DNA of 64,000 nt, taken from contig NC_092573.1 of NCBI RefSeq assembly GCF_037975245.1, positions 18,236,265-18,300,264 on the forward strand, in the 5' to 3' direction. The translations under genes and the position numbers were made by a program. The number at the start of each line of letters is the position of its first letter. The stretch's first letter is position 1. The DNA is from Apostichopus japonicus. Lineage: Eukaryota; Echinodermata; Holothuroidea; Aspidochirotida; Stichopodidae. The notes under the pieces were generated by a model. The model made no database searches. It saw only the letters and a list, made by a program, of their open reading frames with translations, and had not been told where the DNA came from. Below are positions 16,501-52,617 of the stretch, in pieces.

Positions 16501-18868
16501 CACAATAATATCATATGTTTCTTGTCAGAAGCTGTGCAGGGGCTACCACCCCTCAATGGGTTCAGGTTGGTGTTGCTGTTGGTTTTTACTCTTATTCCTA
16601 TGAAACCAAATCTGCCTTACTTTAATGATTTAACGAAAGACAATCAAACACGTCAGTCACAACATTGTATTTAATTTGAGCTATACCAGTCTAACTTAAA
16701 ATATCACCCAAAGTGCCCTTAATCAACAACTTTTTTGATGCTGTAAATCATATTTTTTTCTGTTTCTTTTAAGTATTATTCTACATTCTTCCAGATAAGT
16801 TTGTCTTGCCATTATAATTTTTGAAGTGTGTGCCTACCTTAGATATAAAAAAGTTATACGACAGTCTGTTTTTCTTCTTCATTTTTTGGTAAAAAGAAGA
16901 GTGTTCTGTCTCCATCTTTCTATTTTTTAATAGTTCTATTGTGTATATTATAAAATGGGTGAAAATATCTTACTAATCTTAACAAGAAAAAGGTATCTAA
17001 CATATTTGAAAAATTAGCAAATTTGTGAAAATATTAGTGTTTGTAGAGTTTATTAAAACCAGTTACTTTAGTGTAATACATGCAGAAATAGAGACTGAGT
17101 ATTTTAAAGCAGAAACGGTCAGTGAGGTTAAGAAGAGACATAGCAGGACCATTGTTTGTTTGGAGGGGTAGGGGAGGGGTGTGGTGGTGATTAAGACAGA
17201 AGGAGGGGGAGGGAGAACGGTGTGTGATGAAGAAGGGGAGCTTACCATCTAATTATATGATGCCAGTTCAGTAAATAATTATTATAAATTTGCTTTGTAT
17301 TTATTACAAGAAAGTGACTTCTGATTGGCTATTGTATTGTAAAAGAGACTACATTTCAGACCGAAAATTCAGACCACAAGCATATACCATACTGTGTGTC
17401 CTATACTTACATATATTATTTTGAAACCATATACAACAGTGTAACAGTATTTATAAAGAAAACCAAAGTGCTGATTAATTATGGCCAGTGTCTTCTTCCT
17501 TTTGAATCAAGCCATTCTTTTCCATCGATAGCCTGGAATTCCATTTTTGTGTAAAGTGACCTTTCCTTTATTGCCTCTGAATAGCTTTTTACCATTGGGA
17601 ATATTATTTGTGGGGGGGGGGGTTGAAGTGTGGGAATTGAAGTGTGGTGGTGAGGAAGTGAGCCACTTGTATGCCAAAATTTGGAACAAAGTTATGACAG
17701 ATCACTGATATATTGACTTGAAATATTTTCAATCTGTCGTTATAATTTTTGTGACTTTTCATGATAAATATTGTTTTCAGTTGCTGGTAATACCACTGTG
17801 TTTATTGCATTGTCAGGAATGGAATGGTTACATAGCATAATAGGAACTTGAATCTAGCCAGTGTCTTACCACAGGGTGACATTTTCTGGGATCTTGCGCT
17901 GTGTCAGCCACAACAGTATGATACCGTTGACTGCACTTGGCTAATAACAGAGGCCAGTTCTCTTCTGGTCGTAAACCCCCAAAAGGCCACTATTGTATTT
18001 GTGATTGACTTGTGTATTGAATCAAAGTTTATGCTGTAGTCAAGGTTACATCAAAACAAAGATCAAATATTCTTCATGGGTAAAATTTCTTTTGTTTCAA
18101 TACCTCTGCAGTCTGCACTGGATTTGGCCTGCCGTTAAAGTCAATTAAAGACAAACAAGGTTAATAATAAAACACTTCACAGAACATATAACTTGGCCTT
18201 TTCAGTGAGCCTAATACGGGGACCTCTATAACTTAAGGTTCAGGAGAACACTCAATTTGCCGATAGGGACGCCTATTAAATATAAAAACAGACCTATTAA
18301 TGTTAAGTTAGCTAAAACCTCTCCCGGAAGAAGGAAGGAGAGTAAGAATGTGGGGAGGACAAGTAACGTTGTTGGTTTGCTAGCTGCCTGTGTCGTGGCC
18401 GAACGTGATACATGATGTCGCTATGGCAAAAATTCATGTATTATTCTGTCCCATCAAGCATACGTAAAATGTTTCTGTGATAGTTTTAAAACTGCTGACG
18501 GATAAACCCATATGTGGTGCAGATGTTATACCACATTGCATTCCATACATCATTTTACTTTATTTAAAAGTAAATTTCTGACCCAGCAGAGAGGGGAGCC
18601 AACATGTGTGAGGTTATAATAGGAACTGGTACATAATGATATGGGTCAAGGAGTGTGTCATTCAGGGATAATGGTAGTTATATTATGAATAGAATGAGAT
18701 CTGCCACTGGTGCATGCATGATATGATGCTTTTCCTGTTTTCTATATATATATTTTTCTGGTAGATGTTATTTTACTGTGAAATTTTCAAGAAGAAACCC
18801 ACAAAATGTACTTTTGTCTTCCATCAGACTTGCAGTGTTGTGTTATTTGGCCTACTCACCATACCTAT
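16501..18868. other. Intergenic, no gene seen
   Basis: AT-rich with short ORFs lacking splice-consistent or recognisable protein features. The purine-rich stretch 17159-17240 and the G-run near 17613 are simple-sequence features. Nothing else supported. Confidence 0.5.
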
Positions 18869-19500
18869 AGGCCCTGATGGTCAGTTCTAAATTTGAAGCT
18901 AGCAGTAGTTAGAATGAGCTATACCTGGCCCTGATGGTCAGTTCTAAATTTAAAGCTAGCAGTAGTTAGAATTACCTATACCTGGCCCTGATGGTCAGGT
19001 TTAAATTTGAAGCTATTAGTAGTTAGAATTACCTATACCTGGCCCTGATGGTCAGTTCTAAATTTGAAGCTATTAGTAGTTAGAATTAGCTATACCTGGC
19101 CCTGATGGTCAATTCTAAATTTGAAGCTAGCAGTAGTTAGAATGAGCTATACCTGGCCCTGATGATCAGTTCTAAATTTGAAGCTAGCAGTAGTTAGAAT
19201 TACCTATACCTGGCCCTGATGGTCAGGTTTAAATTTGAAGCTATTAGTAGTTAGAATTACCTATACCTGGCCCTGATGGTCAGTTCTAAATTTGAAGCTA
19301 TTAGTAGTTAGAATTAGCTATACCTGGCCCTGATGGTCAATTCTAAATTTGAAGCTAGCAGTAGTTAGAATTAGCTATACCTGGCCCTGATGGTCAGTTC
19401 TAAATTTGAAGCTAGCAGTAGTCAGAATTAGCTACACCTGGCTCTGATGGTCAGTTCTAAATTTGAAGCTAGCAGTAGTCAGAATTAGCTATTTCTGGCA
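18869..19500. repeat. 57-bp minisatellite, about 11 copies, with a 4-unit higher-order repeat
   Basis: The phrase GGCCCTGATGGTCAGTTC recurs every 57 bp (starts at about 18870, 18927, 18984, 19041, 19098, 19155, 19212, 19269, 19326, 19383 and 19440). Shared variants (CAGGTTT, CAATTC, GCTATT versus GCTAGC, TACCT versus TAGCT) show that units 2-5 and 6-9 form a duplicated 228-bp higher-order block. No coding potential. Confidence 0.95.
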
Positions 19501-22034
19501 TAATAGAAGCTTCATTCTTTATTCGGTTCCTTTGTTGTTGTCTGTAGCAACTGTACTGTAATTATAAAGTTGTAATTCAAACAACAAGGGATGTAGGGGA
19601 AAGGAGAGGAAAGATGAGGGGTTGGGGAAGAGAAGTTTGGGGAAAGAGGAGGAATTAGGGAGTGCCTCATTATTTCCATAACAACAGGATATATTCTAAT
19701 ATGGCCAACGGAATGTTGGTTTTGTGAAAAAGGCCGCTTAAATTTCTAGCTGGATGGAGGAGGTAAGGTGTGTGAGATACTTTTGACCTGTAAAAGTCTA
19801 TGCAAAAAAAGAATCACCAGACTATTATTATTATTACTTACTAACCTTTCACCTAGTCTTCATGAATATTCATATCAGGGATATATTAAACTTACAGCCT
19901 GCATGTGACCATTTTCGTATAGATGAGAAGTCTCTCTCATAATCAGGGTACTGTTAAGAAGTGTGCTAATTATTTACATCCAAAGACCTTTTCTTCAGTT
20001 TTCAGTCTATAAGTATGTTTTTTTTATTTTATTTTTTTATTAAGGTACAAGTTTGTACGTTACACTTCATTTAGAAACAGTATAATTTTCAAACAAGTGT
20101 GTATTGAAAATTAAGTCTTGTGTGTTATTCGTCAGCCTCTTAAACATTAGATATTAAAAAAAAGAAATAATTCTTTAGTTCAGTTGTACTACAGAAATAC
20201 AAATTCCAGATGTTTATGAATTTATCCTCAAGCCCATCTCTATTTATTGTGCTAATACAGCATGAATCTTACCAGGCCATCTATGCTCCCATCTAAGTAT
20301 CACCAGGGAGTGGATCCAGGCTGTCTGTGCAGTTAAATGTTCAAACAGCCAAACAGGAAAAATTCAGTTTAAATTCACAATAAAAGTGACCAGTCTTACC
20401 CATCCTCATTCATACATAAATTGTGTCGAAGACCAACAATGCTATTTCAATAATATTGGGGGGAAAAGTTGAGATGGTACCAAGAAAAGTTAGCAGACTT
20501 AAAACTGATTCCAGGCCACTTGGTGATATTAAATGGGAGCCTCTGCCTTTTAACCTGCCAATGAAACATGTCATGAAAATTGGTTAAATTATACAGACAA
20601 AATTTACTTAGCAAAAATGATATGGTTCAATGGTGGATCACATATATAGAGAAGTGTTATTGAGGTGTAAACTGTACATACTAATACTGTATTACATTCC
20701 AGCCAAACCGTAATTGTGATGTGTTGTCTTATATGAATGAATCAATTCACAGGTCTATGCAACTAGATATACTTATTTTCCATCTAAAGTTTGTTCAATA
20801 TAAATAAAATTCATTCTTTTGTAGAACTAAAAACTGTTACTTTTGAATTTTTTCTCTCATTATTAGTGTCAATTTCACTTTTCACAGTATTTATATTCAT
20901 AATGAAATAGGCCGGGAGACTACTTCATCCCTCAACCCCCCCCCTCCACCTCATACCCCACCCCCACCTACACCCACAGCCCCTTTGACCCTACCTGTAG
21001 ATGCAAGTTACACAATGCAATGTGCACAGTTAATGACGCCTAATACTTTAAATACTTGTTATAAATTTCAACATTAACAAGAATATGAGGTAAAATTTCT
21101 TATTGATACGTCGAAGATGAACACATGATATTAGCACACTATAGTGAATTGAATCCTGATTCAATTTATATCTAAATGTCATTTTCGAGATCTTAAGAAT
21201 TGAAAGTGATACTTTTTATAGAAAGTAAAATATACAAGCAAAATAAGTGAAATGTCATAGATGCACACACTAATAAAAAGTTTTCTTTTTGATGTAATTC
21301 ATCATTAAAAAAAATGGTTTGTATTCGTGAGATATATCACCTGGGGGGGGGGGGGCAAGTTTCGCACGCGACCAGTTAGGTCATTTTAGGTACTTTTGCA
21401 ATATGCCCAATTACCAAACACTTGTAACCACGGTAACGGAACTGTTACGAATGTTTCTTTAGCCAACTTGAACAGTTTATTCCTGAGTTCCATCCCTAAG
21501 TTTCTGGAAGGGATAGTCCAACTGAATATAGGAACTTGATATAGTGTAAATTCACTATACTCTTAGCTGATAACCCTGGGTGCTCTGTTCTCGTACTGTT
21601 CACAGTACATAAATGTATCATTCGCACTTTGTCTACAACTTCTATATAATTGGATTATTCATTTTCGTCAGTAAAAGTTGTTATTTGCCGAATCAAATTT
21701 AGAATTTGGATAAACTTAAAAAATAAAAAAAAAAGCTAATAGTAAATGGGATTTTGACAATTGGGTTCAGTTTTTCATCTTTTCAAGTGGTTTGTCTGAA
21801 GTTCTCATTTTGGTGTGTACTATTCTTTCAGCAGTACAGTTTAAGTTATCTCAATGTCTATGCTTTGCTAAATTATGATTGAAATAAATTTGTATATGAA
21901 GCGGCTACAAAACTGTCTGTCTAGCGCCATAATTGATCGGTTTATTACATTAATCTTAAATCTGTATAGTCGTCGGAAACAATATTTCGATTAGGCCTAT
22001 CCATACGTGCGCTGTTGAAATGACGTAATATATC
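19501..22034. other. Intergenic, no gene seen
   Basis: AT-rich sequence with a C-rich stretch at about 20935-20990 and a G-run at about 21344. No splice-consistent exon or recognisable protein. Confidence 0.5.
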
Positions 22035-25600: not shown

Positions 25601-28600
25601 TGGGGGGTTTGTAAAACCAAAAATTTTCTTGTACGCTCCGCGCCAACCGATGGTGGCGCTCCGCTCAGATAGTCTTGCATACAACTTTGTAAATCCATAT
25701 CAATCGCAAAAAGTGCTCCCCCCCTTTCAAATTCCTGGCTACGTCGCTGCTCGTGATCATAATAAACTGGCAGGCTATCTGTGTGGTTAGTGTTTGTGTG
25801 ACGCGAACGATCAAATTGGATGGGAAAAAGGAAAAAGGAAGGTTATATACAGAATTCATTTGTGTTATTTTATGACAATTGATCCTGCATGTGGGCAGGA
25901 ATTGTGTGGGTTCCTAATTCATTGCAACTGGGGTCTCTTTAATAGCTGAACCATTATGGAATAAAACGAGGTAAAAGATTCCCTGTTTTTCGACGCGTAT
26001 AGGCCTACACTCAACATTGCGTCCGACTAAACAACATGAAATGGTGGAAATCAAAGCTCTTTTGAGGGAATTTAACAATTTTCAGCTACTGTTTGCCAAA
26101 AATCGGCCAAAATGCTATTTGGTCGGACCTTTTTCCTCCAGCCAAAGAAATTTTTAAAAATTTGTCACCCTTACAGTTTAAAAAAGCTAAATCTGCAACC
26201 CTCGTCTATCTGTCTAGCATATTTGGGGACCAACTGGCATCAGACTTTGTGATCGCTGGTATTACACTATATTGTTGCACATACCATAGGAGGTTAAGAC
26301 AGTACACTGAATCATGTCTAAATATGTGTTTATACAAATGTGTTTACTATTTATACAGATAGGCCTATACAGGAGTAATTTGACGAGATGTTTCTCTCTA
26401 CTGAGAGTATTGAGAGTGTACACTATACTTCAAAATAAAGGGAATACTCCTTATACTTCATAGTATAGATTATACTCCCAATATTTCGTAGTATCATGAG
26501 AGTATACTCCCTATACATCATAGTATATATGCAGGGTATAGAGTATACTCCCTATTCTTCATAGCATAGAGTATACTTCCTATACTTCGTAGTATAGAGT
26601 ATACTCCCCATACGTCGTAATACAGAACATACTCCCTATACTTCGTAGTATAGATTATACTCCCTATACATCATAGTATAGAGTAAACTCCCTATACTTC
26701 GCAGTATAGAGTATACTCCACATACATCATAGTATAGAGTGTACTCCCTATACATCATAGTATAGAGTATACTCCCTATACAATAAATGCAAAATATAGA
26801 ATATACTCCCTATACTTCATATTATAGAGTATACTCCCTATGCTTCTCAGTATAGAGTACACTCCACCTACATCATAGTATAGAGTGTACTTCCTATACA
26901 TCATAGTATAGAGTATACTTCCTATACAATAAACGCAAAGTATAGAGTATACTCCCTATACTTCATATTATAGAGTATACTCCCTATGCTTCTCAGTATA
27001 GAGTACACTCCACCTACATCATAGTATAGAGTGTACTCCCTATACAACATAGTATAGCGTATAACTTCCTATACAATAAATGCAAAGTATAGAGTATACT
27101 CCCTATACTTCATATTATAGAGTATACCCCCTATGCTTCTCAGTATAGAGTACACTCCACCTACATCATAGTATAGAGTGTACTTCCTATACATCATAGT
27201 ATAGAGTATACTTCCTATACAATAAATGCAAAGTATAGAGTATACTCCCTTTACTTCATATTATAGAGTATACTCCCTATGCTTCTCAGTATAGAGTACA
27301 CTCCACCTACATCATAGTATAGAGTGTACTACCTATACATCATAGTATAGAGTATACTTCCTATACATTATATGCAGAGTATATAGTATACTCTATTGGC
27401 AGTATTACCAAGTAGATCATTCTGTGGCATCCATTTTACGATACGTATATTCTCTCCGACGGCGACACCCGATGGTAGTGTACCCTCAAACTTCCATAAA
27501 ACGCGTTGTTTAAGTCCGTTGAATGTATTTAACATCAAGGCTGTCTGTTTGTCCCCCAGTGATTTCACTGCAGAACCCTGTGCATAGGAATCATATACCA
27601 TGATCGGGTTGAAATTACGTGACTACGGCGATGGGGAGGGAACAGGGACGAGTGGGTATTATTTCGGTGTGATGGGGTTGGGGAGATAAGGTGGTGGGAA
27701 GGTACTGAGACGCACTTTATAAAGCTATAAGGTATGTCCTCATCAACTGTTTTGGAATAAAGGGCATAATATTGTCTCCTATACGTTAGAAAGTCAAAGA
27801 ATGGTCTCTCATGTGCAAATGTCAGGACGAATTATCTTGACTCCTTATACGGGTTTGAAATGAGTCGGGGGAATGAGTTAGATAGGGAGAAACAGAACGA
27901 GCAATACTTTTGAATGTGTCGAGGTATACAATTCCTGCATAGAAAATCAATGCTCTAAACAATTGGGGTTATGCTCCCCCCTGTACTCCCTGCCAGGGTC
28001 CATATTGTTACATCCCTCTCTAAGCAGTGTTGTTATCGATATAACGTTTTGCTTACTGCACTTCTAAATATCTGAGAATGGGAGAATTAGAACTTCCAGA
28101 AATGTATATGTACTTTTTGAAAGGTTTAAGAACTTTGGCATGCCTTTAATGGACGCAATACTACCACAAAGGAGATCTCCAGATAATACTATGAAATTAA
28201 AATACATGTTAATTCATTTTATTCTTATGACCCCCTCCCCTCCCCTGACCCTAACGCACCATCCCCCTTCCCCACCCATGAAGATTTTAATGTACCGTAC
28301 AAACATTAATCTTGCAGGAACACCAATTTACGGACATATATGAAAAATAACTTACCAGCGAACAGATAACAACACCGTTCTCACCAGCACCATCTAGAAA
28401 CTCTATTAAGTCCTACAACATAAAATAAGAAATCGAAAAACACAATTAAATAAGATAGAAGAATAAGCTATTGTTCTTCTCGTTCTTTTGTTTGCGGATA
28501 GTTTTATTATCTGCCAAAAAAAAGAGGTAACAATGTAGATTGAGCACCTGGTAGAAGTTCTTTCCCAACCTCCCCCTCCCCCTCTCGTGGTCCTGATTAA

Positions 28601-40433: not shown

Positions 40434-41671
40434 TACTTACTGCAGTAGGCTATATGCATACGTACACGTCTAGGCTAATATATTTCATACTCAATATTCA
40501 TAAAAGGAGTAGCTGCAAAGAGATACGGCCATAGTGTTACCATCGTCGCAATAGGCCTAAGGCAGACATACAGTGTGAATGGTAAGGAAGCTTTTGTGCA
40601 TGTGTGAGTGAGTACATAAACTTTATACATTGTAGTCGGCCTATATATAGCCTAATACAAAATCACATTCTTCTAATTGGCTGTTTATTAACTCATTTGT
40701 ATTCAGTAAGTGTCTTCATTTGTATAATTTCGTAACAGATTATAGTTCTTTGCCCATGCATTTGGAAAGGAAAGTTTTTGTTTTGTCATTTCGTTTGGAC
40801 TTCAACATCGTCCCAGCTGTAGTGATTTGCTTTGAGCTATATTATACATGTCATATTTTCATAAGTGGTTGGGTTGTTACATGCATTATGTTCTCCTATC
40901 CTACTTTTGGTTATTTCTATATTGCTAAATGTTTATGTAAGCTACAGTGATGAACACTCACCGGTTCCCTTGTATAAAAATATACATTCATGGAAACTCA
41001 ATTATTATTTTACATCGTTTTTGACAACGAGAATACCAATTTTAAATCGCTTGAAAGTGTATGTGTGATTTGTAATTTGGCAAGAAAACCCCCACCGAAT
41101 TTCTTTGTATGTTCTAACTTTATGTTTTGGCATTACTGAACAAAGTTAACAATATATGTATTCTATGAGAGCATCATGACTGTTCGTGATACAGCAATTT
41201 TTTGTGTTGCAGATATTATCAGATGCTATAAATGAAACAATAGGAAAGTTCAAAGTACAGTTGAAATATTATTTTATTATTAGTTATAATATTAATTTCA
41301 ATATCGGATGATTTACAGTAAGATTAATGATTAATTATTGTTGTGCTTTGAGAGATGTTGACTTGGATATACTGGGATACAGTTGGAACTCAGCTATCAT
41401 GTAATTCGATTCATCGAATTAACCTGCTTACAAATATTCCCCAATCGGATAAGTTATATCTAAGAGTTAAAAGTTTATAATAATTTATAATTTAAAAGAA
41501 TTTATATAGTATAAAAACCATGAAAATGTAAGCAAAACTAGAAACTAACTTGAAACTCTTGAAAAGATCATACTCTGATTATGATCTCTGTCTCCCTCTT
41601 ACAGTAAATAATATCTGGAGGTGGTCCTTGTATATGTTGGAACTATCGACTCTTGAAGTTGGAAGAAAAGT
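40434..41671. other. Upstream region of the GBP-like gene
   Basis: AT-rich, no coding exon recognised. In the frame of the GTPase ORF a TGA lies six codons before the ATG (about 41654), so the coding region cannot extend further upstream without an intron. No interferon-type or TATA element could be assigned with confidence. Confidence 0.4.
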
Positions 41672-43783
41672 ATGGAGCCATATCCATCAGTACCGTTATG
41701 CCTACCAAGTAATTTCACCTGGGACCCACAAATCAGAGACATACAAGTGGACAACAGTAAACCGCGAGGCGATGTAACAGTATGCAAAGAAGGACTTGCA
41801 ATCCTTGAAGGTGTTAAAGACGATTATGTCATCGTCATTTGCATTACAGGTCCAGCCCGTACCGGGAAGTCGTACTTTTTGTCACAATTTCAAGAAGGCG
41901 TGACCTTTGATGTAGGTCACACAACGACATCAAAGACCACGGGAATATGGATTGCTTTGGCACCTAATTCGGTGACAACGACTGACGGGAAAGTCGCGCG
42001 TCTTGTTCTTTTGGATGCCGAGGGGTTAGCATCTACATCCAAGATCGACCATGATGAAAGCCCTGAAATATGGGATAGAAAAGTTTTCACCCTCTGCGCT
42101 CTGTTCAGTTCCTATTTGATATACAATAGCAAAGGTATTCCTACAAATGATGATTTAGACAAGCTGAGTTTCATGTCCCAGTTTAGTTCATCTATCCAGG
42201 GTCACTTATCAACACCCGGAGAAAGCACGCAAACCGCTGTTGATATTTCTCCATATTTTATGTGGCTAATAAGAGACGCCGATCTCCAACCTGAAGTAGA
42301 GGGCCAAAACTGTGCCTGGAAGAAATTCATACTATCTTCAGTCCTCTGCGTAGAAGCTGTTGCAGCAGCTAGACACCCTCGAAATGCCATTAAAGCAGCT
42401 ATCAGAAGGTCATTTCAAAACTTTGATGCGCACGGGATACCTCCACCTCAAGTGAAACCTAAATGTATTCCAAATTTGCCTTTAGCCGAAGACATGGAAC
42501 AGATCGGCAATGAGTTTTTATGTCAGGTTTTAAAAGTTAAAAACCACGTTCTCACCTGTGCAGAAGTGAAATCGATAAAAGGTTTTCACGTAACCGGCCA
42601 ACAGTTGGCTTTGTATGTGTCATCATGTGTAAACGTTGTGAACAGCGAATGCGATACGTTACCTATACAAACTGCCTGGGAGACTTTGCTTGAAGCAAAA
42701 TGTAACGCAACTTTGATTGCGATCAAGAAAAAGTATGATGACCACGCAAATCAAATAAAGTTTCCTGTTTCAACTGAAGACATTGACAGTTTTCATGATA
42801 AGGAATCTGCTGAGGCTTGGAAAGCATTTACCGACTTTAAAGCCTCGACATTCGACGACAGAAGCGTAAAGCAGTACAGGAAGAAACTTGATTCAGCTCT
42901 CAAAGAAAAATTTCATACCATAATGACCACAAACTACACAAAATCAAACGATGCATGTGAGAAAGTGATGAAATCAGCAAAGAGAAAGCATTTCGATCCA
43001 AAGTGTTATTTCACAACCAAACTGACAATTTCCGTTTTGGAAAGTGCGAAGGTAACCGTCCTGGCAGAATACGACAGAGATGCACGTGGGCCAGCAAAGG
43101 ACAAGGTAAAAAGGAAGTACGGTGAGGATATGGATGAACAATTGTGTCAATTCGCACCGCTTATTGCAGAACGTACACTTTCTGGAGCAGAGATTGAATT
43201 TAAAGAAAAACTGGATGCTCTGTTAAAAGAGGGTCCTCTTGAGAGTCAAGATGCATCTGCGAAGTTCTCTTCAATCTGCCAAATTGTACACGAACATTTT
43301 GAGGCAAGTTCTCATGGAATGGACGATGTGCTCAGTCGTGAATGCATCGCAAAATTGGACTCGGTGATGTCCGACGCCGAGACAGATTTCTATCAACGGA
43401 ACGATGACCTTTCCTCCGAATACTGTAAGAATTTGATGACTAGGTTGATAATCAAAATTTTAAAACCATCGATTGACAATCATGACATGTTCGTGTCATA
43501 TGACAAAAAGATGTCATCTATTCTACAACAGTACGATGAGAATGCTAAAGGTCCAAAAGCGGACGAGGTGAGAGTTGCGGCGGTCTTACAGATAGACAAA
43601 GATATCAAGAGGGCAAACGAGCAACGTGTGTTAACGGGAATAACAGCAGGCATTGAAGTAGCAGCTGTGGGGCTTGGAGCACTAATTGGCGGAAAGACAG
43701 GGGCAGGTTTGGCCGCAACCGCCACCGCCGCCGTCACCGTTGCAGCAAAATCATTGCGAACAGATATCGACCAAAACGAATAA
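41672..43783 (+). CDS. Guanylate-binding protein (GBP/atlastin-like) large GTPase, uninterrupted ORF
   Basis: 703 residues in one exon. The GBP-type G domain is clear: P-loop GPARTGKS (60-67), switch I Thr in HTTTSKTTGIW (83-93), G3 DAEG (115-118) and the family-specific G4 Arg-Asp in WLIRDADL (201-202). Residues about 300-640 are charged and helical, like the GBP stalk. The end is unusual: residues 656-692 form two Gly/Ala-rich hydrophobic stretches split by GGKTG, followed by a short polar tail ending DQNE. There is no CaaX prenylation box; vertebrate GBPs often use CaaX and atlastins use a transmembrane hairpin, so this may be a membrane-inserting segment. GBPs hydrolyse GTP, oligomerise and act on membranes, often in defence against intracellular pathogens; a similar role here is inference. 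It lies between UGT relics on the opposite strand. The ATG follows an in-frame TGA closely, which supports the start. Confidence 0.92.
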   Translation: MEPYPSVPLCLPSNFTWDPQIRDIQVDNSKPRGDVTVCKEGLAILEGVKDDYVIVICITGPARTGKSYFLSQFQEGVTFDVGHTTTSKTTGIWIALAPNSVTTTDGKVARLVLLDAEGLASTSKIDHDESPEIWDRKVFTLCALFSSYLIYNSKGIPTNDDLDKLSFMSQFSSSIQGHLSTPGESTQTAVDISPYFMWLIRDADLQPEVEGQNCAWKKFILSSVLCVEAVAAARHPRNAIKAAIRRSFQNFDAHGIPPPQVKPKCIPNLPLAEDMEQIGNEFLCQVLKVKNHVLTCAEVKSIKGFHVTGQQLALYVSSCVNVVNSECDTLPIQTAWETLLEAKCNATLIAIKKKYDDHANQIKFPVSTEDIDSFHDKESAEAWKAFTDFKASTFDDRSVKQYRKKLDSALKEKFHTIMTTNYTKSNDACEKVMKSAKRKHFDPKCYFTTKLTISVLESAKVTVLAEYDRDARGPAKDKVKRKYGEDMDEQLCQFAPLIAERTLSGAEIEFKEKLDALLKEGPLESQDASAKFSSICQIVHEHFEASSHGMDDVLSRECIAKLDSVMSDAETDFYQRNDDLSSEYCKNLMTRLIIKILKPSIDNHDMFVSYDKKMSSILQQYDENAKGPKADEVRVAAVLQIDKDIKRANEQRVLTGITAGIEVAAVGLGALIGGKTGAGLAATATAAVTVAAKSLRTDIDQNE

Positions 43784-46413: not shown

Positions 46414-46419
46414 TGAGAC

Positions 46420-48503
46420 TACGGAGAGCCAAACGTTCCATAAATGTCGAAAAAGAAAGTGAAGTGTCCAAGTTAATATATATATGTCCAAATCGATATC
46501 AACATGTTACAATTCGATATCAGCATGTTACAATTCCATATGAACATGTCGAAACAAAATACAATATGCCATTGCGTCTATCAACATGTCAAATTCAACA
46601 TCAGCATGTCGAAAACTTGTAACAGCATGCCATTACTACATTGGTCATGTCAACATGCTATATTTACGTCGTGCTATAATTTTGGCACTTCGGCGCGCGC
46701 CAACGTTTCGTATATGTCGAGATTTATTTCAGTATGTCCAAAACTTGTGTCAGCATGGTGAGCGAAGAGTAGTGAAGTATTGCCATGACAACGTTGCACA
46801 TGGTTCGTGTCGTTCACACGGTACTATGGTTGAATCATGGAGCTATAAACAGATGGAGAAAACCCACTTTGAAGTATCATTGTAACCGACAAAATTTGAT
46901 CGCCATAAGTAAACATGCCTCAGGGCACAAACACGAGTAAAGCCATCATCAGCTATTACGTAATCCTGGTACAAAGGTCATTTCGTATCTAGCGCCCCTC
47001 ACAACATAACAACAGACACTCCGATCCTAACGTATATGTAATTGAAATAGTATACACAGTACTCATATATGTTACGTTACGCATACCTGTAAGAATTTCG
47101 ATCGGAATATATCTTTCATTTCTCACCGAATCATGCGAAGATTCGTATTTAATAATTAATTGTTTATCTCAGCATATATTTCATCGCAATATATGAACAA
47201 GTAATGGCGAAATAGGTACTTTTAGTCAAGTGTAAGGGGCTTTATTATCTTGCCCATATACTTTATACTTGTTATCTTTATTTTTGGTGGGCTTCTTGTA
47301 CAAGCTACGGCTTCCAAGCCCTTCCACCATTTTCTCTCCGAAATTTCCATTATTTTTCTTTTATATGATTTATTACTTATTATTTTCTTTGCATGGTATT
47401 GTCTTCACAGTCCTATTATTATATAAACATTGTGAGGAAATGGAAAAATAAATGAAATGAAATAAAACTTTTCTTCGTTCGTTAGGCAAATAACGTTAGT
47501 GCTGTTTGTTATTGCATTGGGAACCTAGTGTTATAAAATTAACAAAATTAATTTAACACGAAACATGGCTGTCAAAAAACTTTGCATCCGCCGAGGACAT
47601 TAGAAATGTTCATGCTACAGGATATAGTTGAATTTATGGTGAAGCTGATGATTGAAGAGTTTGAGAGGCTGGATGTTCCAGACGACATAAATTTGGAAGA
47701 TACATTAATTGTTGAAAAACATGAGGAACAAATTCTAAGATAATTAGCAGGTTATGTGCCATTTGCCCTTAAAAAAACGTTACATGAAAGTTAAGAGTAC
47801 TCAGAATGCTTTAATATTTTTACAGTACTTAAACTGTATGTCTGTTGCAGGTGAAGGTCACAGTTTTTTAGATGAGTTGCGACCAATGGGATCGACTCAC
47901 ACACCCACCGCCGTGCCTGCCTATGCCAATCACGGGAATACATCGATATATCAAAATTACGTAATCAGTTCCTGTTCCTGTTTCGGATAAACATCTCTCG
48001 TTACCTCCGCGGAGCGCAACAGATGTAACCCCTGAGGGAACGAAACGTATCTCACTAAGGAAAAGTCGTAGCTTTCCGCTACAGTATATTCAACCATAGT
48101 ACCGTGTGAACGACACGAACCATGTGCAACGTTGTCATGGCAATACTTCACTACTCTTCGCTCACCATGCTGACACAAGTTTTGGACATACTGAAATAAA
48201 TCTCGACATATACGAAACGTTGGCGCGCGCCGAAGTGCCAAAATTATAGCACGACGTAAATATAGCATGTTGACATGACCAATGTAGTAATGGCATGCTG
48301 TTACAAGTTTTCGACATGCTGATGTTGAATTTGACATGTTGATAGACGCAATGGCATATTGTATTTTGTTTCGACATGTTCATATGGAATTGTAACATGC
48401 TGATATCGAATTGTAACATGTTGATATCGATTTGGACATATATATATTAACTTGGACACTTCACTTTCTTTTTCGACATTTATGGAACGTTTGGCTCTCC
48501 GTA
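46420..48503. mobile_element. 2084-bp DNA transposon-like element, 416-bp inverted arms, TSD TGAGAC
   Basis: Left arm 46420-46835 and right arm 48089-48503 are almost perfect inverted copies beginning TACGGAGAGCCAAACGTTCC. A perfect 6-bp duplication TGAGAC flanks the element (46414-46419 and 48504-48509). Each arm carries about 20-bp subrepeats with CATGT or CATGC cores and the GGCGCGCGCC palindrome. The 1.25-kb centre has a decayed coding stretch (47611-47940): VEFMVKLMIEEFERLDVPDD, then after a stop and a frame change AGYVPFALKK / RYMKVKSTQNALIFLQYL and GHSFLDELR. This looks like the end of a transposase-type protein but I cannot assign a family. Long arms and a 6-bp TSD are known for Polintons, yet the TACGG terminus does not fit the usual AG start, so the superfamily is open. 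Confidence 0.88.
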
Positions 48504-48509
48504 TGAGAC

Positions 48510-51240: not shown

Positions 51241-52242
51241 AATGGAGGTAAACGACAAAGGCAAATGAATATATATAAATGAAAATCGTAATGAGTTGGA
51301 AAATCAAGAACAGTGAAAAAACTTTCAGCCTCCACCGGGATTCGAACCACGGGCCTCCCGCTCTGTACGCGGACACCCTAACCACTAGGCTATGGACGCT
51401 GATTGTATGTCCAGAGGTTCGAAACCGGTAAGGAAGATCGTAATTCCACTGTAGGCGTTTGTCACCTATATCGAACAATACTAGTTCTGTTTTTGGTGAC
51501 ATATTTTGCCCTACTCTAGAGATCAAACATGATGCTATCCAACTCGAAAATCATTTGTGATTCCTAAAGCCGGATCTCGAAAGAGATACTTTGAACAGAC
51601 TTTATGTTAATGCAATGGAGGTAAACGACAAAGGCAAATGGGAATATATATAAATGAAAATCGTAATGAGTTGGAAAATCAAGAACAGTGAAAATACTTT
51701 CAGCCTCCACCGGGATTCGAACCACGGGCCTCCCGCTCTGTATGCGGACACCCTAACCACTAGGCTATGGACGCTGATTGTATGTCCAGAGGTTCGAAAC
51801 CGGTAAGGAAGATCGTAATTCCACTGTAGGCGTTTGTCACCTATATCGAACAATACTAGTTCTGTTTTTGGTGACATATTTTGCCCTACTCTAGAGATCA
51901 AACATGATGCTATCCAACTCGAAAATCATTTGTGATTCCTAAAGCCGGATCTCGAAAGAGATACTTTGAACAGACTTTATGTTAATGCAATGGAGGTAAA
52001 CGACAAAGGCATATATATATTTATATAAATGAAAATCGTAATGAGTTGGAAAATCAAGAACAGTGAAAAAACTTTCAGCCTCCACCGGGATTCGAACCAC
52101 GGGCCTCCCGCTCTGTATGCGGACACCCTAACCACTAGGCTATGGACGCTGATTGTATGTCCAGAGGTTCGAAACCGGTAAGGAAGATCGTAATTCCACT
52201 GTAGGCGTTTGTCACCTATATCGAACAATACTAGTTCTGTTT
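51241..52242 (-). repeat. Tandem array of about 374-bp units, each with a tRNA-like SINE head
   Basis: AATGGAGGTAAACGACAAAG recurs at 51241, 51614 and 51989. Each unit carries, on the minus strand, a tRNA-like module (51328-51399, 51703-51774, 52078-52149). That module has an A-box TAGCCTAGTGG, an anticodon-like stem CCGC/GCGG with loop GTACAGA (in copy 1), and the B-box GGTTCGAATCC. The third unit is cut at about 52244, where the sequence turns into an inverted copy. Open frames crossing it are repeat translations. Confidence 0.9.
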
Positions 52243-52244
52243 TT

Positions 52245-52553
52245 CGAGATCCGGCTTTAGGAATCACAAATGATTTTCGAGTTGGATAGCATCATGTTTG
52301 ATCTCTAGAGTAGGGCAAAATATGTCACCAAAAACAGAACTAGTATTGTTCGATATAGGTGACAAACGCCTACAGTGGAATTACGATCTTCCTTACCGGT
52401 TTCGAACCTCTGGACATACAATCAGCGTCCATAGCCTAGTGGTTAGGGTGTCCGCGTACAGAGCGGGAGGCCCGTGGTTTGAATCCCGGTGGAGGCTGAA
52501 AGTTTTTTCACTGTTCTTGATTTTCCAACTCATTACGATTTTCATTTATATAA

Positions 52554-52560
<7 letters not shown>
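52245..52560 (+). repeat. Inverted fourth SINE unit, forming a palindromic cluster
   Basis: Reverse complement of a 51241-type unit: starts CGAGATCCGGCTTTAGG, with the tRNA-like module on the + strand at 52425-52496. The B-box has one change (GGTTTGAATCC). It ends in a (TA)n run, as does the opposite end of the array at 51137-51238, so the whole 51.1-52.6 kb block is roughly mirror-symmetric. Confidence 0.88.

Positions 52561-52617
<57 letters not shown>

Follow-up and report, generated by a model that had tools for sequence, protein, structure and literature searches.

A recently active family of long-armed, non-autonomous DNA transposons that probably belongs to the IS3EU superfamily

A 2084-bp element with perfect inverted arms

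We analyzed a 64-kb stretch of DNA (the window) from contig C13 of a 671.6-Mb, 35-contig genome. UDP-glucuronosyltransferase open frames, together with a 708-aa frame for a guanylate-binding-protein GTPase at window positions 41657-43783 (PF02263, 2.3e-29), are in keeping with an animal genome. The window also contains tandem arrays at 18756-19610 (period of about 57 bp) and 26406-27531 (about 28 bp). At 51267-52562 lies a tRNA-derived repeat in three direct copies and one inverted copy, with four Rfam tRNA matches, that is probably a SINE array. Between these features we find a 2084-bp element that starts TACGGAGAGCC, ends GGCTCTCCGTA and is bounded on either side by TGAGAC. Its terminal inverted repeats (TIRs) form the longest arm pair among the inverted pairs listed for the window. 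The parts of the element are as follows.

46414-46419, no strand: left target-site duplication (TSD) TGAGAC, seen in the sequence; empty relatives have one unbroken site
46420-46835, plus strand: left TIR arm, starting TACGGAGAGCC; 416 of 416 nt (100%) complementary to the right arm
46489-46549, plus strand: sub-terminal repeats of about 21 bp with GATATCA and CATGTY units (TRF period 21)
46836-47231, plus strand: end piece of a second DNA transposon (TIR CATGGAGCTATAAACAG), part 1; 98.2% identical to bases 1-396 of the element at locus L038
47232-47461, plus strand: insert of about 230 bp within that end piece, with AAATG-type repeats at its tail; absent from the L038 element and from copies L011, L012 and L015
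47462-47873, plus strand: end piece of the second transposon, part 2, with a coding remnant; 98.5% identical to bases 405-816 of the L038 element
47874-48087, minus strand: inner flank of the right arm; in copy L016 it continues the TIR, which is about 552 bp there
48088-48503, minus strand: right TIR arm, ending GGCTCTCCGTA; 416 of 416 nt complementary to the left arm
48504-48509, no strand: right TSD TGAGAC, seen in the sequence

An earlier note on this DNA had claimed exact borders for the element, and these hold to the base and are shared by the other copies described below. It had also given the arms as 416 bp and almost perfect; the length is right and the arms are in fact perfect. Hexamers of the CATG type, a motif picked after looking at the sequence, occur 11 times in the arm against a mean of 1.4 in 1000 shuffles. 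The sub-terminal repeats are possible transposase-binding sites.

Copies of the family and their target sites

When up to 3 mismatches are allowed, the 672-Mb genome contains the element's terminal 30-mer 277 times (134 + 143); the reversed pattern, used as a control, occurs 0 times. A genome search with the left arm returned 271 first-look candidates; 40 of these were scored, all with matches of 99-100%. Among 100 ends listed, 62 form 31 facing pairs with spans of 357-8834 bp and 38 are unpaired in that listing. We fetched 20 loci, which favor good copies because they were picked from the scored arm matches; one (L024) is incomplete at the fetched boundary, and the other 19 could be scored. 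In all 19, both ends are intact and identical between copies, and the flanking 6-bp duplication is perfect. Together with the window copy, this gives 20 copies that all have the termini TACGGAGAGCC..GGCTCTCCGTA and whose 6-bp TSDs are all perfect and all different. The 2084-bp element is therefore mobile and is one of many near-identical copies with common ends, and precise insertion, shared ends and a 6-bp duplication are properties of the family. The earlier note was thus correct in calling the element mobile and in its 6-bp target duplication. The 277 ends contradict the possibility that the arms are a local inverted duplication unique to this locus, and copies with a different border or lacking the 6-bp duplication were looked for and not found among the 19.

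To examine the target before insertion, we joined the flanks of the window copy with TGAGAC present once and used this as a query. There were 55 candidates, of which 40 were scored and matched. Two of the matches are the flanks of the window copy itself; the remaining 38 are 75-90% identical and all span the junction. All five of the empty relatives that were fetched have no insertion, an unbroken sequence and a single target copy (TGATAC in four, TGATTC in one). The joined flanks belong to a diverged repeat and, given that uninserted relatives are unbroken at the junction, the element entered this old repeat cleanly.

The range of targets and the ends also bear on the identity of the family. 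Dada transposons insert into small-RNA genes, and their U6 and U1 families are described in PMC3706591 as lacking TIRs; we rejected Dada based on the 416-bp TIR and the 20 different target sequences found here. A second candidate is a short derivative of Polinton/Maverick. Polintons end in AG..CT and carry genes for polymerase B, integrase and capsid. The window family ends in TA..TA in 20/20 copies, and five of six frames of the long copy L015 match no Pfam family, although a short derivative could lack the Polinton genes. Long TIRs fit a Polinton, and a 6-bp TSD is characteristic of that group as well (PMC10045372). On its ends we rejected this candidate, as the earlier note had done by termini and size, and consider such a derivative very improbable.

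Two observations address the age of the family. Over the 20 copies, the two arms of one copy differ by a mean of 1.15 substitutions and arms of different copies by 1.54, from which it follows that the family is young. One variant is common to both arms in L020, L021, L026 and L027, and another is common to both arms in L015, which suggests that some homogenization, with occasional copying between arms, is likely. An extra 21-bp repeat unit is confined to one arm in 5/5 fetched copies of 2.57 kb. The earlier note had proposed that the insertion was young or that its arms were gene-converted. Youth explains most of the arm identity and that half of the proposal stands; conversion as the sole cause was rejected on the same substitution counts, with some homogenization still likely.

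A second transposon inside the element

The interior of the window copy is in large part derived from another transposon. The CATGGAGC element stands alone at L038, where it is 4.8 kb long with the TIR CATGGAGCTATAAACAG and has its own 7-bp duplication ATCTGAC, and it is therefore a separate unit. The first 816 bases of this element correspond, at 98% identity, to window positions 46836-47231 and 47462-47873. At the protein level the coding remnant (47600-47873, by tblastn) aligns over 59 and 35 residues, about 86% of them identical, with an open frame (L037:2704-3222) in a diverged copy of the L038-type element. The decayed coding remnant that the earlier note could not place is thus a fragment of a different, inserted transposon and not a gene of the 2084-bp element itself. 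Interior sequence of the window copy is also present in the long copies L011, L012 and L015. Another diverged copy of the CATGGAGC element contains an insertion of about 5 kb with a reverse-transcriptase frame (L035:3202-5175; PF00078, 1.2e-27).

Arm identity in the window copy ends at base 416, precisely where the second transposon starts, because that transposon sits in one arm. In L016 neither arm is interrupted and the arm match extends to about 552 bp. From this comparison we infer that 416 bp would be a scar of the second transposon's insertion, not the natural arm length.

The second transposon may be P-like, based on a 7-bp TSD as in Galileo and on a nearby frame for a P-type transposase (PF21787; L037:7657-9000). 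The label is a weak one: the PF21787 frame reads on the strand opposite to the remnant frame and falls outside the stretch that matches. Pfam offered nothing convincing for the remnant frames of L035 and L037, a viral polymerase match at chance level (E 0.048) being the single hit. The possible P-like piece inside the element raises the question of whether the window family is itself a P- or Foldback/Galileo-type element. Galileo, a P-superfamily transposon, resembles the family in its long, internally repetitive TIRs and its chimeric copies, but it has other ends and a 7-bp TSD (PMC2775673), and the P TSD is given as about 8 bp in PMC3706591. In the window family the TSD is 6 bp in 20/20 copies, and the CATGGAGC element is, as described, a unit of its own. 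A P or Galileo identity was rejected on ends and TSD length and is, in our judgment, extremely doubtful.

Probable assignment to the IS3EU superfamily

The ends and TSD of the window family resemble a known kind of transposon. IS3EU elements have TA..TA termini and usually a 6-bp TSD (PMC10045372), and in a set of IS3EU families from rust fungi the TIRs are longer than 30 bp and the ends are TAYGG..CCRTA (PMC12730594). All of these features are found in the window family, with the difference that its TIR is 416 bp (about 552 bp in L016) and that no transposase was found in the window copy or in the long copies examined. IS3EU is a sparsely documented superfamily, with 45 families in Repbase in May 2022, 17 of them autonomous (PMC10045372). 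Styx, an IS3EU-like element of the fungus Zymoseptoria, also has a 6-bp TSD and copies of varying length, but its TIR is 36 bp and its full-length insertions are about 7.9 kb (PMC10853768).

A transposase of the family's own was looked for in several ways. No stop-to-stop frame in L011, L012 or L015 exceeds 140 aa. The Pfam scan covered L015 (6.8 kb) among these long copies, and five of its six frames (all except the third minus frame) match no Pfam family. Longer autonomous copies that share the termini and carry a transposase, as the earlier note had envisaged, were not found among the copies and ends covered.

Given that the window family shows the published IS3EU features, we checked the genome for transposons of the rva_4 type. 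The rva_4 domain (PF24764, an integrase core), which we take to be the IS3EU transposase, has at least 148 matches at E <= 0.01 with 150 of 224 candidates scored, one of them (L047:4369-5247) at 1e-72. There were 0 matches in 14 control genomes, which is a weak control, and a literature search for rva_4/PF24764 returned nothing relevant. Two nearly identical rva_4 loci, L050 and L052, start TATGGCAAGCCGTT, an end that occurs 123 + 122 times in the genome and 0 times in the control. The 100 of these ends that were listed include many pairs about 3 kb apart, and in four pairs, 20.4-26.0 kb long, rva_4 frames free of stops lie between the ends. Nine pairs were checked, the four that enclose rva_4 and five others, and 9/9 have the ends TATGGCAAGCC..GGCTTGCCATA and perfect 6-bp duplications; two of the nine, both on contig C12, have the same duplication, which probably reflects the duplication of a single locus. 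A second pair of rva_4 loci, L047 and L048, starts TATGGTTGGCC at the one end reached.

The 20-26 kb rva_4 elements and the window family have in common the TAYGGnnAGCC motif, the 6-bp TSD, sub-terminal repeats of 20-21 bp with a GATATCA core and many short derivatives, and 8 of 11 bases are the same in TACGGAGAGCC and TATGGCAAGCC. They differ in that the rva_4 elements have a transposase frame and in that, by eye, their arms are unlike those of the window family past the terminal motif and repeat core. The rva_4 family's many copies of about 3 kb are a parallel case of short derivatives. A DDD/E integrase-like transposase is thus present in like-ended elements of the same genome and was not found in the family's own copies searched.

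We also looked for an autonomous partner by position and found none among the 186 of 192 exact 29-mer ends listed, within 30 kb for the first set of ends and 50 kb for the rest. For this search the rva_4 matches were transcribed by hand, with neighbors merged and 150 of 224 candidates scored, and the ends covered were the exact ones, apart from which about 85 ends carry 1-3 mismatches. The only element near a listed rva_4 match is at C6:12604490, where a 21-residue fragment lies about 5 kb outside the element.

Based on these data, we propose with good confidence that the window element is a non-autonomous cut-and-paste DNA transposon of the IS3EU superfamily. The proposal draws on the ends, the TSD length and the parallel with the rva_4 elements, not on an enzyme of the family's own; a signature is all that ends and TSD length provide, and the TAYGG form is one described from fungi. 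The main alternative is that the family represents a superfamily not yet described, moved by a transposase of its own, whose TAYGG ends and 6-bp duplication coincide with those of IS3EU by chance. This would be consistent with the finding of no transposase-bearing copy among those covered, but the rva_4 elements of the same genome are similar in end motif, in TSD length and in their sub-terminal repeats, and we regard the alternative as unlikely. We give similarly little weight to a variant of this idea, in which the TACGGAGAGCC family is moved by an unrecognized transposase lineage that is related to IS3EU only in its end motif, its autonomous copy being missing from the assembly or having diverged ends. 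The earlier note's suggestion of an undescribed family is therefore probably wrong at the level of superfamily. The non-autonomous transposon family seen in the window is real and has been active recently; it is most likely of a known kind, though possibly unlisted as a family.

If the IS3EU assignment is correct, a DDE (integrase-like) transposase supplied in trans, presumably the rva_4 enzyme of the kind encoded by the 20-26 kb elements, would bind the arms, cut at TACGG..CCGTA and join both ends to the target at positions 6 bp apart, and gap repair would then produce the 6-bp duplication. At some stage the second transposon may have entered one arm past base 416 and been truncated at its far end, and the hybrid of the two may then have multiplied in a recent burst. 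The finding leaves transposon classification unchanged. The genome shows a recent burst, seen in 20-kb elements with rva_4, in short derivatives whose TSDs are exact and in target sites that are empty, and it would make a good animal system for studying the spread of large IS3EU elements and their long-armed passengers.

Two further observations concern the rva_4 elements. A stretch common to two rva_4 copies contains a HECT ubiquitin-ligase frame (L047:8808-9794; PF00632, 1.2e-07) that is possibly a captured host gene. Many of the rva_4 matches listed are on contig C17, mostly at about 15-25 Mb.
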